Source: Syntrophaceae bacterium
Lineage (GTDB): Bacteria > Desulfobacterota > BSN033 > UBA1163
DNA: 34,795 bases
Assembly: GCA_013388645.1 (NCBI GenBank)
Contig: JACAEV010000078.1
Span: forward strand, 1-34,795
Direction: 5' to 3'
Below, piece by piece: positions 17,744 through 32,960 of the stretch. Below the pieces are notes generated by a model. That model was given only the letters and a program-made list of their open reading frames with translations. It made no database searches and was not told the origin of the DNA. Position 1 is the stretch's first letter. Each line of letters starts with the position of its first letter. A program made the translations under genes and the position numbers.

Positions 17744-17820
17744 TGGTCGGGGAGAGGAGATTTGAACTCCCGACCTCTTGGTCCCGAACCAAGCGCGCTA
17801 CCAGGCTGCGCTACTCCCCG
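17744..17820 (-). tRNA. tRNA-Pro (anticodon CGG)
   Basis: Read on the minus strand: acceptor arm CGGGGAG/CTCCCCG, D-arm GCGC/GCGC, anticodon stem CTTGG/CCAAG with loop TTCGGGA (anticodon CGG, decoding CCG), T-arm GGGAG-TTCAAAT-CTCCT, discriminator A and an encoded CCA end (17744-17746). All stems pair (one G-T in the T-stem) and the length is 77 nt with CCA. A solitary tRNA gene between the adhesin-E-like gene and an intergenic remnant. Confidence 0.97.
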
Positions 17821-24317: not shown

Positions 24318-25112
24318 ATGAATGCCAAAGGTGAGACTCCATCGATTCAATCTTTTAGGATAGGGCGAAAGGAGCGTTTGGATAAACTTTTGGTCGAGAA
24401 GGGGATGGTGCCAAGCCGTGATAGGGCAAGGGCATTGATCATGGCTGGAAAAGTAATGGTCGGGGAGAAAATGGTTGATAAACCCGGGACCCAGGTCAAT
24501 ATCAACACGAGACTTCAACTTCGTGGAGAAGGATCTCCCTATGCGAGTCGGGGGGGTGAAAAATTAGAAGGGGCTCTTCAGACCTTTGGAATTGATCCCA
24601 AGGGAATGGTCGTCATGGACGTCGGAGCCTCCACAGGGGGGTTCACCGATTGTATTTTGCAAAAAGGGGCTCAGAGGGTTTATGCGGTCGATGTTGGATA
24701 TGGGCAGTTGGCCTGGAAACTTCAACAAAATTCCAGGGTCGTAAACTTGGAGAGAAGAAACATCCGTTACTTGAATAGAGAGGAAATTCAAGGGGAGGCA
24801 GATTTGATCCTTGTCGATACCTCTTTCATATCCATAGAAAAATTTCTCCCCCACCTCTTAAAATTTCTTAAAAGAGGGGGATTCATCCTTGCCCTCATTA
24901 AGCCCCAGTTTGAAGTGGGAAAAGGGGAGGTGGGGAGGGGAGGAGTGGTCAGAAATCCCACCTTACATCAGAAAGTGATTAACCGAATTTCCACGTTTAG
25001 CATTCGATTAGGGCTGAAGGTACTGGGTGTGACAGAGTCTCCTTTGCTTGGTCCAAAAGGAAATAAGGAGTTTTTCATTTACTTGAAAAAAGAGAATGGA
25101 GAGGATGGGTAA
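24318..25112 (+). CDS. tlyA: TlyA-type S4/FtsJ rRNA 2'-O-methyltransferase
   Basis: About 264 residues. An N-terminal S4 RNA-binding domain (RLDKLLVEKGMVPSRDRARALI) and a FtsJ-like SAM domain with DVGASTGGFTDCILQ (motif I), AVDVGYGQL, DTSFISIEKFLP and LIKPQFEVG. TlyA proteins methylate the 2'-OH of 16S and/or 23S rRNA cytidines; some members were called hemolysins. I choose ATG 24318 with GAAGG about 12 nt upstream; TTG 24309 is too close to that site. Usual position after dxs. Confidence 0.93.
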   Translation: MNAKGETPSIQSFRIGRKERLDKLLVEKGMVPSRDRARALIMAGKVMVGEKMVDKPGTQVNINTRLQLRGEGSPYASRGGEKLEGALQTFGIDPKGMVVMDVGASTGGFTDCILQKGAQRVYAVDVGYGQLAWKLQQNSRVVNLERRNIRYLNREEIQGEADLILVDTSFISIEKFLPHLLKFLKRGGFILALIKPQFEVGKGEVGRGGVVRNPTLHQKVINRISTFSIRLGLKVLGVTESPLLGPKGNKEFFIYLKKENGEDG

Positions 25113-25650
25113 ACCGAAAGAACCCAAACCGGCTAAACTTTTTATGAGTGTGATTGCTTCGGAGAATGATATTTTTCAACAGGGGATAGAAGACCTCAGC
25201 GCAATCTTTGGGAAAACCGATGCCATCAGTCAACGATTCCCTTTTGATTTCACAGATTACTACACGCCAGAGATGGGAAAACCACTTTTCAGGCATTTCA
25301 TGACCTTTCAACGACTCATTTTTATTCCTGCCCTCCCTGATATTAAACGGACGACAAATGGGCTGGAAGAAAAATACGCCGCCTCGAGTGGTCATCGACG
25401 CCTCAACATCGACCCGGGATATATTGGTTTGGGGCATGTCATCCTCGCGACGACGAAAGGATATACCCATCGACCCTACCTCCGGGACGGCATTTATGCT
25501 GATTTGACATTGATCTTTCAGAACAAATCTTTTCAGCCTTTGGCGTGGACCTACCCCGATTATCGCAGCGAAGAGGTCATCGCGCTTTTCAATCAATTTC
25601 GAAAAAAATATTTAGATGATTTAAGAAGGAGGGCCAACGATTCATGTTAA
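25096..25650 (+). CDS. DUF4416 family protein
   Basis: 184 residues resembling DUF4416, a family I know mainly from Desulfobacterota and relatives and with no established function. Visible conserved stretches: PAKLFMSVIAS, FPFDFTDYYTPEMG, IDPGYIGLGHVILATTKGYTHRPYL and IYADLTLIF. No signal peptide or membrane segment. It overlaps tlyA by 17 nt and yicC by 7 nt, so is translated with them. ATG 25105 is an alternative start. Confidence 0.85.
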   Translation: MERMGKPKEPKPAKLFMSVIASENDIFQQGIEDLSAIFGKTDAISQRFPFDFTDYYTPEMGKPLFRHFMTFQRLIFIPALPDIKRTTNGLEEKYAASSGHRRLNIDPGYIGLGHVILATTKGYTHRPYLRDGIYADLTLIFQNKSFQPLAWTYPDYRSEEVIALFNQFRKKYLDDLRRRANDSC

Positions 25651-29127: not shown

Positions 29128-30465
29128 GTGGATAAGAATGGATACCAGAGGCAAGCCCTCAGTATTTACCAATTTATTAGCGACCATCTTTATTTTAATC
29201 GGCCAGATATGGAGATTAAAGGAGAACGTTTCAACTCAGCGATTTTGCTAAGCCTTTTGACCGGGTTGAAAAAAGGGAAAGAGCTGATCATTGGAGAACC
29301 GGGCTTAGGGAAGACGACTTCAGCAGAATATATCTGTTCTCTCGTTTACCAATTTCCATTGGGTGTGATCTGGGGAAGCGAGGTGTCAGGCCATCCCGAA
29401 CAAACGGAAGAGAAAATTATTGGGAGACCAGATTTGGGGAAGTTAAATCGAGGAGAAGAGGATGTGGTCTGGACCAATTTTTCCCAAATTCCGGTAAAAA
29501 TTGTCGATGAGATCAATCGTCTTCCAGAGACCAAGCAAAGCATGATTTTAGATGGTGTGGATCGTGGAAATTGGGAATATCTCAATGAGATGATCATTAA
29601 TGATGAATATTGTCTTTTTGCCACGGCCAATTACCAGGATGGTGGGACCAATACCATCATCGCCCCGCTCGTGGATCGATTCGATGTGATGGTGGAATCC
29701 AGATACCCTGGGGCCAACCTTTCTTTCCTCATTGGAAAAAATAAACGGAAAGATCATCTCCTGAGACACCCCAAATATGAAAAGGACTTCTATCATATTC
29801 TGAAATCCAAGATCTCCTATGACAAAAAGATTTCTAAATTGGAAGAGGCTTGCAATCATTTTGGAGAATACCTCCAGCAAGCCTTGGGGATTAAGCCTTT
29901 TCAAAAACAAGATCGTGAACAAATCCGCGAGGAGATGGAACGTATTGAGTTGGACCTCGATGCGAGCGCCTTTGCCCGCATGCTCCTTGCGGAGTTGTCT
30001 TTCTGTGAACGCTATGGACAGAAACGAGTGGTGGAAAACTGTGAAGAGGGTTGTCACTATACCGGGTATCTGTGTCACCAAATTAAAAACTGCGCTTCCA
30101 ACCGATTACCCTCCTCCTTGAAGCAATATGCCCAAGGATTGGCATGGCTATTAGAAGATTCTGAGATCGACATCGAACATATCCAGGCGATCGTCCCCTA
30201 TGCATTGGCCCACCGGATTCAATGGAAAGATGAAATTCTTTCCCAAAAAGAAAGGGCAAAGAGGGATGACCCTTTCCCTATCTTTCTTGCCAAGGAATCC
30301 GTGAAAATGGTCTCTCAGAGGTACCGCGAACAGAATGAACATCTAAAAGATGCCTTAGCCGTCGGATCGAAAATTTATCAAGGGGGCAATCTGGAACCAT
30401 TGGAAGGAGATCACCCTCTTTACGTGGAGATCAAAAAAGATCTGGATAGCCGAAAGCGTCCATAA
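29128..30465 (+). CDS. MoxR-type AAA+ ATPase
   Basis: 445 residues. Walker A GEPGLGKT (56-63), Walker B VKIVDEIN (123-130), sensor-1 Asn168 in ATANYQDGG, and RFD with Arg184 as candidate arginine finger, as in MoxR ATPases that work with VWA partners. The C-terminal region has an unusual cysteine cluster, C305-x3-C309-x6-C316-x5-C322, which could hold zinc or Fe-S, followed by LAWLLEDSEIDIEHIQAIVP and HRIQW. From memory this arrangement recalls archaeal MoxR proteins; a search is required to confirm. GTG start with GAAAGGAAG upstream. First of three tightly spaced genes; the next starts at the base after its stop. Confidence 0.9.
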   Translation: MDKNGYQRQALSIYQFISDHLYFNRPDMEIKGERFNSAILLSLLTGLKKGKELIIGEPGLGKTTSAEYICSLVYQFPLGVIWGSEVSGHPEQTEEKIIGRPDLGKLNRGEEDVVWTNFSQIPVKIVDEINRLPETKQSMILDGVDRGNWEYLNEMIINDEYCLFATANYQDGGTNTIIAPLVDRFDVMVESRYPGANLSFLIGKNKRKDHLLRHPKYEKDFYHILKSKISYDKKISKLEEACNHFGEYLQQALGIKPFQKQDREQIREEMERIELDLDASAFARMLLAELSFCERYGQKRVVENCEEGCHYTGYLCHQIKNCASNRLPSSLKQYAQGLAWLLEDSEIDIEHIQAIVPYALAHRIQWKDEILSQKERAKRDDPFPIFLAKESVKMVSQRYREQNEHLKDALAVGSKIYQGGNLEPLEGDHPLYVEIKKDLDSRKRP

Positions 30466-31284
30466 GTGGATATTCGTTCATCTGTTTTCAGTGGGTCACA
30501 CAAGGGGCCTATGGAAAAAATGAAACCTATTGCCCAGTCTAAGAAAGGTTCTCCTTCCCCTCCAGACAAGGAGCCTGGGATGGTCAGGAACCCCTTTGAA
30601 GAATTTAATTCTTTTATGGCATCGACCTATCCTCTTCCGTTAGATCAGATTGTCCAATCGACGGAGGCGGTCATGGATCAGATACGTTGGGGGTACGAGA
30701 AACTTTTAGAAGAAGAGGCGAAAGAATTGGTATGGATGGTTCAATACAATACCATTATCAAAGCTTATGAGATAGCTGAAAAATATGTCAAGGAGTTAGA
30801 TTACTCGGCAGAGGACATTGAAGACTTCTGTTTCGCTTTAGAAAATACACAAAAAATTCCATACCTGATTCCAGGACCTGCTGGGGTTTATATTTCAGCA
30901 CTCTGCAACTATGCAAAGGAAGAGGAGATCGTTCTCAAACTTTCAGAGTTGAAGACAGAGATCAACCTCCTTGGGTTTCGACTTCCAAAGGAGAAAAGGT
31001 TAAGAATTGACGGGGACACCGGGGATTTTACAGGAATTGGACTTGAGGGGGGAGAATTATTCGTCGAAGGAAATGCAAAAAACTGGACCGGTGCCGGGAT
31101 GAGAGGAGGAAAAATATTAGTCAAGAAAAACATCGGCCTCCATACAGGTGAATGGATGATGGGAGGAGAGATTTATGTAGGGGGAAGGATAAGGGGATTG
31201 GGCAATATTGTGGAGGGAAAGGTGTATGAGAGAGAGAAACTGGTTTACCCAGGAAAGGCGAAATATCCCAATCTCTATTACTAA
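30466..31284 (+). CDS. GXGXG (FwdC/GltB-like) beta-helix protein
   Basis: 272 residues. The first about 175 are not recognised (a disordered basic/proline segment to about 45, then helices). Residues 181-245 contain about three 20-residue repeats built on TGxGMxGGxIxV (GDFTGIGLEGGELFV, NWTGAGMRGGKILV, HTGEWMMGGEIYV), the GXGXG solenoid of glutamate synthase C-termini and formylmethanofuran dehydrogenase subunit C. No catalytic residues known; such domains are usually structural or form a channel surface. Starts GTG directly after the ATPase stop; ATG 30511 after AAGGGG is an alternative. Probably a partner or target of the flanking ATPase/VWA pair. Confidence 0.75.
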   Translation: MDIRSSVFSGSHKGPMEKMKPIAQSKKGSPSPPDKEPGMVRNPFEEFNSFMASTYPLPLDQIVQSTEAVMDQIRWGYEKLLEEEAKELVWMVQYNTIIKAYEIAEKYVKELDYSAEDIEDFCFALENTQKIPYLIPGPAGVYISALCNYAKEEEIVLKLSELKTEINLLGFRLPKEKRLRIDGDTGDFTGIGLEGGELFVEGNAKNWTGAGMRGGKILVKKNIGLHTGEWMMGGEIYVGGRIRGLGNIVEGKVYEREKLVYPGKAKYPNLYY

Positions 31285-31316
31285 AGTAAAGCGAAAATTT
31301 TAACAGGTCTGAGAAA

Positions 31317-32960
31317 ATGAAGGTGGAAGAGCAGGACTATCAATCGATCATCGAAAAGGTTTGGCCCAAATTGAAGAAAAAGCATCTTTACCCTGAGATT
31401 CCAATGCCCAGGGTCAAAGGGACAGCCGATTCTAAAGAAGGGGAAGAGGACGAGACAGAGGGTGTGGGTTTAGAGATGAAAGCCAAACAGATGACCATCA
31501 GTGGACGCTTTGTTTCTCGGATGAAGGATAAGATGCCAGAGCAACGAGTCATTGAAGCGCTCCTTGATCATGGATTAAGCCATTATACTTTTTGCCCATG
31601 GGATTTTCATACCCATCTCATGCTTTATGCAGAGGCGAAGAAAGTGACGGATGACAAACGATTGGCCAAGCAAGTGGCTAATTATTTTATCGATGTCATT
31701 GCAGACACCCATTGTGTCAAAAAAAGAGATACGGAGATTCCTGACCTTCATCGACATCTGAAAAAAGGAACCGTTGAGGAAGTCATCACCTCCCTCTATC
31801 AAAAAATTTGGGGATTGGATTTAGGAATTTCTCCTTCCAAGCAGAGTCTTCAAGGACACGAGGACATTGTTAGACGACTAGCACGAATTCCTTATCTGGA
31901 TCGTCCGCGCTGGGGCGAGAGTATTAAAAAGTTTGCGCGTTCGATTAAGCCACTCCTAATCGAAGAACAGAGAGAAAAAGAGGCCCAAGGAGGAAAAGGA
32001 GAACAGAATCCTCAAGGAGATCATGATCTCAACCATTATTCCAATGAGGAGATCGATCAAGGGCTGAGGGATTATGCAAAACAAACCATGGCTCTATCTG
32101 AATTTAAGGAGATGGTAGAAGACTTTTCTGATGAATTAAAGGAGATGGGATATGGAATGGAAGGAGGGATGGGAAGAGGTCCAGGGAATCCCATCGATGC
32201 GGATGTCCTCTTTTATATGAAATTGGCAGAAAATTATTCGATCCCTTTGAAGAAACTTCCTCTGAATGAAAAAGGATCTCTGCATCCTCACTCCCATTCT
32301 CCTTGGGAGATCGGTTCGCCTTATCAAGATGTGGACATTTGGACGAGTTTTGGGAAAATCATGCCAGGCATCACTCAGGTCTGGACTAAAAAAGAAGGGA
32401 AGGGGAGGGGGAAGACAGAGGGTTCTCCAGATTGCTTAATTGCCATCGATTCTTCCGGAAGTATGATTAATCCTCGGAAGAGTCTCTCCTATGCCGTTCT
32501 TGGAGCGGCCTGCGCCACTAACGCCTATTTACAAAATAATGCAAAAGTCGCTGTCTACAATTTCAGTGACGCTCCGATGGGGGGAAAAGATATCTTAGAT
32601 TACACCGACCGTCGGGAAGATCTTTATCGGGTCCTTTGTAAATATTTCGGCGGAGGGACAGCGTTGGACTTAGAAGATTTGATGCCCTTGATCCGTGGGA
32701 GGAAAAGCCTTGATTTTTTCATTATCACCGATATGAAAATTACTAATTTGGAATCGTTGATTGGATTTTTTGGACAGATCCAAAATCGAGTCACGGCTGT
32801 TCATATTGGAGATAACCCTTACGCCGCACGGTTTGAAAAGGCCTTTGAGAAGAAGAAAAACATCAGCATCTATACCGTCAAACGGAAAGAGGATATTCCT
32901 CATATTGTCCTCGGAAGGATTAGAGATTATTTTAATCCCACCCAAATAAAAAATTCTTGA
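31317..32960 (+). CDS. VWA-domain protein with peptidase-like N-domain
   Basis: 547 residues. The C-terminal third is a von Willebrand A domain with a complete MIDAS: Asp378-x-Ser380-x-Ser382 in IDSSGSM, Thr448 in FGGGTALD, and Asp472 in IITDMK. The N-terminal part (about 75-145) reads VIEALLDHGLSHYTFCPWD and later NYFIDVIADTHC, recalling minimal metallopeptidase domains attached to some VWA proteins (VWA-like/DUF2201 type), but with HGLSH (85-89) instead of HExxH. A charged, Gly-rich linker (215-235, 355-370) joins the parts. No signal peptide, so cytoplasmic. It follows the beta-helix gene by 32 nt and is the expected partner of the MoxR ATPase. Confidence 0.85.
   Translation: MKVEEQDYQSIIEKVWPKLKKKHLYPEIPMPRVKGTADSKEGEEDETEGVGLEMKAKQMTISGRFVSRMKDKMPEQRVIEALLDHGLSHYTFCPWDFHTHLMLYAEAKKVTDDKRLAKQVANYFIDVIADTHCVKKRDTEIPDLHRHLKKGTVEEVITSLYQKIWGLDLGISPSKQSLQGHEDIVRRLARIPYLDRPRWGESIKKFARSIKPLLIEEQREKEAQGGKGEQNPQGDHDLNHYSNEEIDQGLRDYAKQTMALSEFKEMVEDFSDELKEMGYGMEGGMGRGPGNPIDADVLFYMKLAENYSIPLKKLPLNEKGSLHPHSHSPWEIGSPYQDVDIWTSFGKIMPGITQVWTKKEGKGRGKTEGSPDCLIAIDSSGSMINPRKSLSYAVLGAACATNAYLQNNAKVAVYNFSDAPMGGKDILDYTDRREDLYRVLCKYFGGGTALDLEDLMPLIRGRKSLDFFIITDMKITNLESLIGFFGQIQNRVTAVHIGDNPYAARFEKAFEKKKNISIYTVKRKEDIPHIVLGRIRDYFNPTQIKNS

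Follow-up and report, generated by a model that had tools for sequence, protein, structure and literature searches.

Pairs of a MoxR-type AAA+ ATPase and a protein with a von Willebrand factor A (VWA) domain are widespread, yet the client is known for only a few of them. Systems of the NorQD and CbbQO type often have the gene for the client adjacent to those for the pair. For NorQ/NorD, which serve in the insertion of iron into nitric oxide reductase (NOR), both engagement of the VWA finger and metal insertion have been shown (PMC13036017, PMC9976466). A third conserved protein, namely VMAP, iSTAND, FtsH or a beta-propeller, accompanies the pair in the MoxR-vWA ternary conflict systems (Kaur et al. 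2020, PMC7159879). Here, we analysed a contig of 34,795 nucleotides from an uncultured, anaerobic Syntrophaceae bacterium (GenBank accession number JACAEV010000078.1), the whole of which is referred to as the window, in which the genes for a MoxR ATPase and a VWA protein lie on either side of a gene for a protein with a GXGXG beta-helix. A beta-helix protein as the third member of a MoxR-VWA module looks to be undescribed, judged on the open-access literature. In that literature, MoxR and VWA were not joined with GXGXG, nor MoxR and von Willebrand with formylmethanofuran dehydrogenase, and the trio was not found as a named complex (subscription journals were mostly outside the scope), in agreement with a preliminary description of this DNA whose author knew of no such system. 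MoxR, VWA domain and 4Fe-4S occur together in one paper only, a study of RavA-ViaA and Complex I, and MoxR, VWA and HExxH likewise in one, which reviews NlpC/P60 peptidases of mycobacteria.

The three open reading frames (ORFs) that the preliminary description had placed at 29128-32960 exist at these coordinates and on this strand, and the gaps of 0 and 32 nucleotides between them hold for the longest ORFs. The features of the locus are listed below, with model confidence given as the AlphaFold2 predicted local distance difference test (pLDDT).

29128..30465, + strand: MoxR-type AAA+ ATPase; ORF of 445 amino acids (aa), start GTG; Pfam AAA_5 and AAA_lid_2.
30004..30075, + strand: Cys4 site of MoxR, comprising C293, C305, C309 (then H310) and C316; from conservation in 59 loci; just upstream of sensor-2.
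30466..31284, + strand: GXGXG beta-helix protein; ORF of 272 aa; profile matches to FwdC and GltB; pLDDT 79.8.
30637..30912, + strand: helical N-terminal domain of the GXGXG protein, residues 58-149, which holds D117; from AlphaFold2 helices.
30988..31251, + strand: right-handed beta-helix with GXGXG repeats, residues 175-262; Pfam GXGXG and TIGR03122 FwdC; pLDDT mostly >95.
31317..32960, + strand: VWA protein; ORF of 547 aa; pLDDT 79.4; Foldseek matches to VWA domains including those of NorD and midasin MIDAS (metal ion-dependent adhesion site).
31569..31694, + strand: HxxxH (H85, H89) and D126 of the VWA protein, a candidate zincin-like site; from conservation in 59 loci and two predicted helices.
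32280..32396, + strand: strand pair, residues 322-360 of the VWA protein, a candidate pore finger; from conservation, a low-confidence model and analogy with NorD.
32418..32936, + strand: VWA domain with a full MIDAS (D378-S-S380-G-S382, T448, D472); from conservation in 59 loci and Foldseek.

The true start of the GXGXG gene is probably the ATG at 30511 rather than the GTG at 30466, because AAGGGG precedes the ATG, homologues start around residues 16-42, and the first 39 residues lack conservation and are predicted to be disordered.

In order to establish the distribution of the trio, about 395 genomes of the phylum to which the window belongs were searched separately with each of the three proteins (MoxR at a threshold of E<=1e-20, GXGXG counted over its full length), and Latescibacterota and Chloroflexota were added to the survey. 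The VWA protein was found in 40 of the 395 genomes, MoxR in 39 and the full-length GXGXG protein in 40, and these are the same genomes, the single gap being G020, where MoxR is missing and the GXGXG gene is cut by the start of the contig. With the same 39-40 of 395 genomes recovered from each of three independent starting proteins, the co-occurrence is far beyond chance; the trio is obligate and a real, cohesive unit, and its proteins carry the conserved motifs described below. Homologues of the GXGXG protein lying mostly away from MoxR-VWA pairs would have spoken against such a unit, and this was not what was seen: every full-length homologue in the phylum shares its genome with the VWA protein and, the contig-end case apart, with MoxR. 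Other GXGXG matches in the phylum cover the repeat region only, mostly in proteins several hundred residues longer. The only other match in the genome of the window lies inside a 2545-aa open frame (L001, G000 C184). Within the class of the window, the GXGXG protein is present in 22 of 23 genomes, and a tblastn search of the class loci found MoxR and VWA adjoining GXGXG wherever the contig allows.

Outside the phylum, a VWA member was found in 17 of the 64 Latescibacterota genomes, and the loci read there hold the trio followed by other genes. In one of them (L134, G440), GXGXG and VWA are present and MoxR was not found within the 19 kb read, the search being limited to that stretch. The 251 Chloroflexota genomes yielded a single marginal match to the VWA profile, in a suspect metagenome-assembled genome (G402). 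A trio fragment on a Dehalococcoidia contig (L025), with a MoxR about 78 % identical to that of the window, was set aside as a probable binning error; its genome has no VWA match above E 4e-4 and there is none in the 250 other Chloroflexota. Over the 59 loci, pairwise distances correlate between MoxR and GXGXG (r 0.90), MoxR and VWA (0.98) and GXGXG and VWA (0.94), values that are uncorrected for common ancestry and inflated by the shared species tree, and some of the loci represent one genome listed twice. Conservation is lowest in the GXGXG protein, with a mean identity of 51 % vs 64 % and 56 % for the other two.

The trio falls into two types. In type A, to which the window belongs, intact copies are ordered MoxR-GXGXG-VWA, also in the Latescibacterota. 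Type B, which is divergent (25-36 % identity) and was found in G026, G154, G059 and G180, has GXGXG after VWA, and MoxR ahead of both where the genes are contiguous (MoxR-VWA-GXGXG). The MoxR gene of G059 (L087) lies 332 kb away yet is retained, and that of G180 is on another contig; both types are found together in G026 and G180. Since the order differs between the types and a distant MoxR is kept in G059, the link between the three genes is functional and not only positional. That a third component accompanies the pair in two phyla, even where the genes are reordered or MoxR has moved, offers a genetic handle on target choice. The type B loci (L084, L087, L093 and L095) also have an intact HExxH in the VWA protein and more beta-helix repeats in the GXGXG protein.

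None of the described systems matches the trio in full. NorQ/NorD likewise combine a MoxR-type AAA+ ATPase with a VWA partner, the fold of the trio VWA protein matches NorD, and the trio has a candidate pore finger; however, NorQ/NorD have two components, lack a beta-helix protein and are encoded with their client NOR. The order MoxR, middle protein, VWA is shared with the Escherichia coli genes YehL-YehM-YehP-YehQ, where YehL is the MoxR and YehP the VWA protein. Two E. coli MoxRs were compared with that of the trio, and YehL is the more similar one (hhalign 94 %, with 29 % identity across the AAA core). However, the middle protein YehM shows no relationship to the GXGXG protein (hhalign 0.1 %), and the trio VWA protein resembles YehP in the VWA domain only. 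RavA/ViaA of E. coli share the MoxR and VWA architecture but match weakly (hhalign 21 % for RavA and 37 % for ViaA, the latter reflecting VWA-domain similarity only) and have no beta-helix partner. The ternary conflict systems also unite MoxR, vWA and a third conserved protein, but that third protein is not GXGXG and the trio has no component of the kinds found in them, hence it is not a member of that group.

The MoxR protein has Pfam AAA_5 and AAA_lid_2 domains, both above cut-off, and its catalytic residues are intact. Walker A K62, Walker B D127/E128, sensor-1 N168, the Arg finger R184 and sensor-2 R326 are invariant in the 59 loci which, together with the C-terminal AAA lid and the alignment to MoxR 2r44, places it among the MoxR AAA+ ATPases. 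In addition, C293, C305, C309 and H310 are invariant in 59/59 loci, including both types, and C316 is found in 57/59. The segment C305-C316 is an insertion just before sensor-2 relative to the MoxR 2r44 and ChlI structures. NorQ is not known to have a Cys4 insertion. The four cysteines are a candidate site for a [4Fe-4S] cluster or Zn, the type of cluster or metal being our inference from the sequence. The preliminary description had overlooked this site and its His, the HxxxH...D motif of the VWA protein and the lack of catalytic-type invariant residues in the GXGXG protein.

The VWA protein matches Pfam VWA only weakly (E 0.11), and a profile search of PDB produced coiled-coil chance matches only. 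Nevertheless, the MIDAS residues D378, S380, S382, T448 and D472 are invariant or nearly so (D378 differs in one row), and Foldseek with the model found VWA domains, including that of NorD in the NorQD structure (9qhe, E 4.7e-5) and the midasin MIDAS bound to NLE1-UBL (8ql1, E 5.7e-5). A VWA domain with a MIDAS of the form DxSxS...T...D identifies it as a MoxR-VWA partner. Nearer the N-terminus, H85, H89 and D126 are invariant. Position 86 is Gly or Ala in 57/57 type A rows, the window having HGLSH...D, and is Glu (HExxH) in type B. In the AlphaFold2 model helix 75-91 carries H85 and H89, and the next helix, 114-136, carries D126; this arrangement is compatible with a putative zincin-like metal site that in type A is without the catalytic Glu. 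The ligand-type residues are kept and the Glu is gone, so the VWA protein of the window is not a zincin metallopeptidase, and no match of the N-terminal domain to a metallopeptidase family was found by sequence. Kinship of this domain with DUF2201_N (PF13203) was rejected, as there was no Pfam match in the window protein nor in 20 genomes that included trio genomes. A further conserved stretch, residues 322-360 (PHSHSPWEIG...WTSFGKIMPG), is modelled as strands 322-329 and 354-360 at a pLDDT of about 50-66, and by analogy with NorD this strand pair is a candidate finger entering the MoxR pore. The Cys4 of MoxR and the degenerate HExxH of the VWA protein provide concrete metal-binding predictions for such machines in anaerobes.

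The resemblance of the middle protein to FwdC and GltB, noted in the preliminary description, was borne out by sequence profile matches to FwdC (8rja, E 6e-28) and to glutamate synthase GltB (1llw, E 4.5e-7). With Foldseek, the model was matched best by FwdC and FhcC (probability 0.96-1.00, but weak by E-value at about 0.06-0.1) and by glutamate synthase. The window copy scores 27.8 bits with Pfam GXGXG (PF01493), under the cut-off of 32.5, and the relatives in L022, L084 and L093 are above it; the profile match and the beta-helix model together assign it to the GXGXG beta-helix proteins. It is not FwdC itself, as TIGR03122 gives 48.2 bits vs an equivalog cut-off of 130.65 and fwd genes are absent near the trio. 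The beta-helices of FwdC and GltB are structural parts of multisubunit redox enzymes. FwdC/FhcC and the GltB C-terminal domain share the GXGXG right-handed beta-helix with the trio protein but belong to redox or formyl-transfer enzymes, whereas that of the trio is tied to MoxR-VWA. In the type represented by the window the beta-helix is short (about 4 coils) and fused to an unrelated helical domain, with model helices at 58-84, 94-108, 115-125 and 136-149, and no recognisable relatives of this domain (residues 58-149) were found by Pfam or Foldseek. Residues G183, G202, G209, M212, G215, M231 and G234 of the beta-helix are invariant. Over the whole protein, invariance is confined to Gly, Met and a small number of Tyr, Trp, Pro, Arg and Leu residues, and an alignment of types A and B shows no invariant Cys, His, Asp or Glu. 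However, position 117 is acidic in both types, with Asp in type A and Glu in type B, which makes D117(E) a candidate MIDAS ligand.

Our preferred reading, for which we consider the chances evenly balanced, is that the trio constitutes a single machine of the MoxR-VWA type that uses ATP to remodel a target encoded elsewhere. The three proteins very probably form a complex. MoxR subunits would assemble into a hexamer, on which the VWA domain would dock via its MIDAS face and pore finger, in the manner of NorD on NorQ. Linking the machine to the target would be the task of the GXGXG protein, as a dedicated adaptor or scaffold, and ATP hydrolysis would pull on the VWA protein or the adaptor and cause a conformational change in the target. 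The target would most likely be an enzyme of anaerobes that contains metal or Fe-S and is sensitive to oxygen, and metal may be delivered or checked through the HxxxH-D site of the VWA protein and the Cys4 site of MoxR. That the target is a metalloenzyme is a tentative proposal, plausible from the analogy with NorQD/CbbQO and helped indirectly by the conserved Cys4 and HxxxH-D. A more specific version, in which anaerobes possess a MoxR-VWA machine whose Fe-S ATPase and 2-His-1-Asp site in the VWA protein, a relic of a metallopeptidase, sense or supply metal while the beta-helix adaptor presents the enzyme, is rather unlikely.

Three observations weigh against the preferred reading. The neighbours of the trio differ among families and no client gene is conserved beside it; the association of the trio with genes of the aldehyde ferredoxin oxidoreductase (AOR) family is at the level of the genome only, with no common orthologue or clade by pairwise identity (trio genomes having one to four copies); and carbon monoxide dehydrogenase/acetyl-CoA synthase (CODH/ACS) was rejected as client since CdhC is in 24/31 trio genomes vs 22/35 without the trio, i.e. 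there is no association. The conserved fourth neighbour, a metalloenzyme, that the preliminary description had proposed looking for was not present across families. By its anatomy the trio works like the machines of the NorQD type but, because no client is encoded with it, we have not placed it with the client-linked systems of the NorQD type, where the client metalloenzyme is encoded with the pair. Those neighbours that recur are limited to particular lineages, namely Lon in f12 and f82, an FKBP-type isomerase in the Latescibacterota and a gmk/HD-domain region upstream in the family of the window.

The client could instead be the GXGXG protein itself, which MoxR-VWA would fold or activate for work alone or in another complex. 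Clients often being encoded beside pairs of the NorQD/CbbQO type, its status as the least conserved of the trio and the enzyme-subunit role of FwdC-type beta-helices favour this, but invariant Cys, His, Asp and Glu residues are lacking when both types are considered and its gene has no conserved partner enzyme gene beside it, and we regard it as fairly unlikely. Of the two roles suggested in the preliminary description, client or scaffold, that of scaffold or adaptor is the better fit because there are no invariant Cys, His, Asp or Glu residues for a metal or an active site, and the GXGXG protein is rather more probably an adaptor than a client. Alternatively, the trio may mature tungsten AORs. 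AOR family genes are in 31/31 of the trio genomes tested vs 26/35 genomes without it (one-sided Fisher about 0.002, our own arithmetic, with no correction for kinship or for the testing of two families), and in G062, G097 and G296 the trio has a tungsten AOR gene at a distance of 3-4 genes (L137 and L138 of f4, L100 of f89). However, many AOR-rich genomes (G054, G022, G223 and G265, with 17-22 copies) have no trio, most pairs of AORs from trio genomes with one or two copies share only about 25-40 % identity, a paper classifying tungsten oxidoreductases is silent on MoxR and VWA, and an anaerobic lifestyle could account for the association. In the open-access literature AOR was not joined with MoxR. 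AOR maturation is therefore improbable as an account of the trio, and the tungsten link is a weak lead, not a finding.

Equally improbable, in our estimation, is a pseudo-peptidase machine, in which peptide termini or a metal-bound target would be bound by the N-terminal domain of the VWA protein, and the whole would act as a quality-control unfoldase that may feed Lon. The HxxxH...D motif, with its Glu gone in type A and HExxH whole in type B, would suit such a machine, as would the Lon gene next downstream in f12 and f82 (L019, L020, L021, L085, L088, L091, L097, L099, L141, L142 and L143) and the FKBP-type isomerase gene next in 13/13 Latescibacterota loci, but Lon and FKBP are common proteins, each confined as a neighbour to single lineages, and metallopeptidase family matches were not found by sequence. 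The shared logic of a MoxR-VWA pair with a third conserved protein could also indicate a regulated biological-conflict system like the ternary systems (PMC7159879). This is highly improbable, as there was no PADLOC match of note, effector domains and variable modules were not seen, plasmid copies were not found, the trio is kept near housekeeping genes in 22/23 genomes of the class, and the text of PMC7159879 contains neither 'GXGXG' nor 'beta-helix'. The preferred reading, a remodelling machine with a target encoded elsewhere, is the one retained here.

In the Latescibacterota loci (L124-L136), the isomerase, a peptidyl-prolyl isomerase with a lipoprotein-like N-terminus right after the VWA gene, is mostly followed by a pseudouridine synthase. 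Elsewhere in the window, a tRNA gene at 17747-17820 (- strand) is the sole Rfam match, and 25096-25650 encodes a DUF4416 protein of no assigned function flanked by tlyA-like and yicC-like genes.

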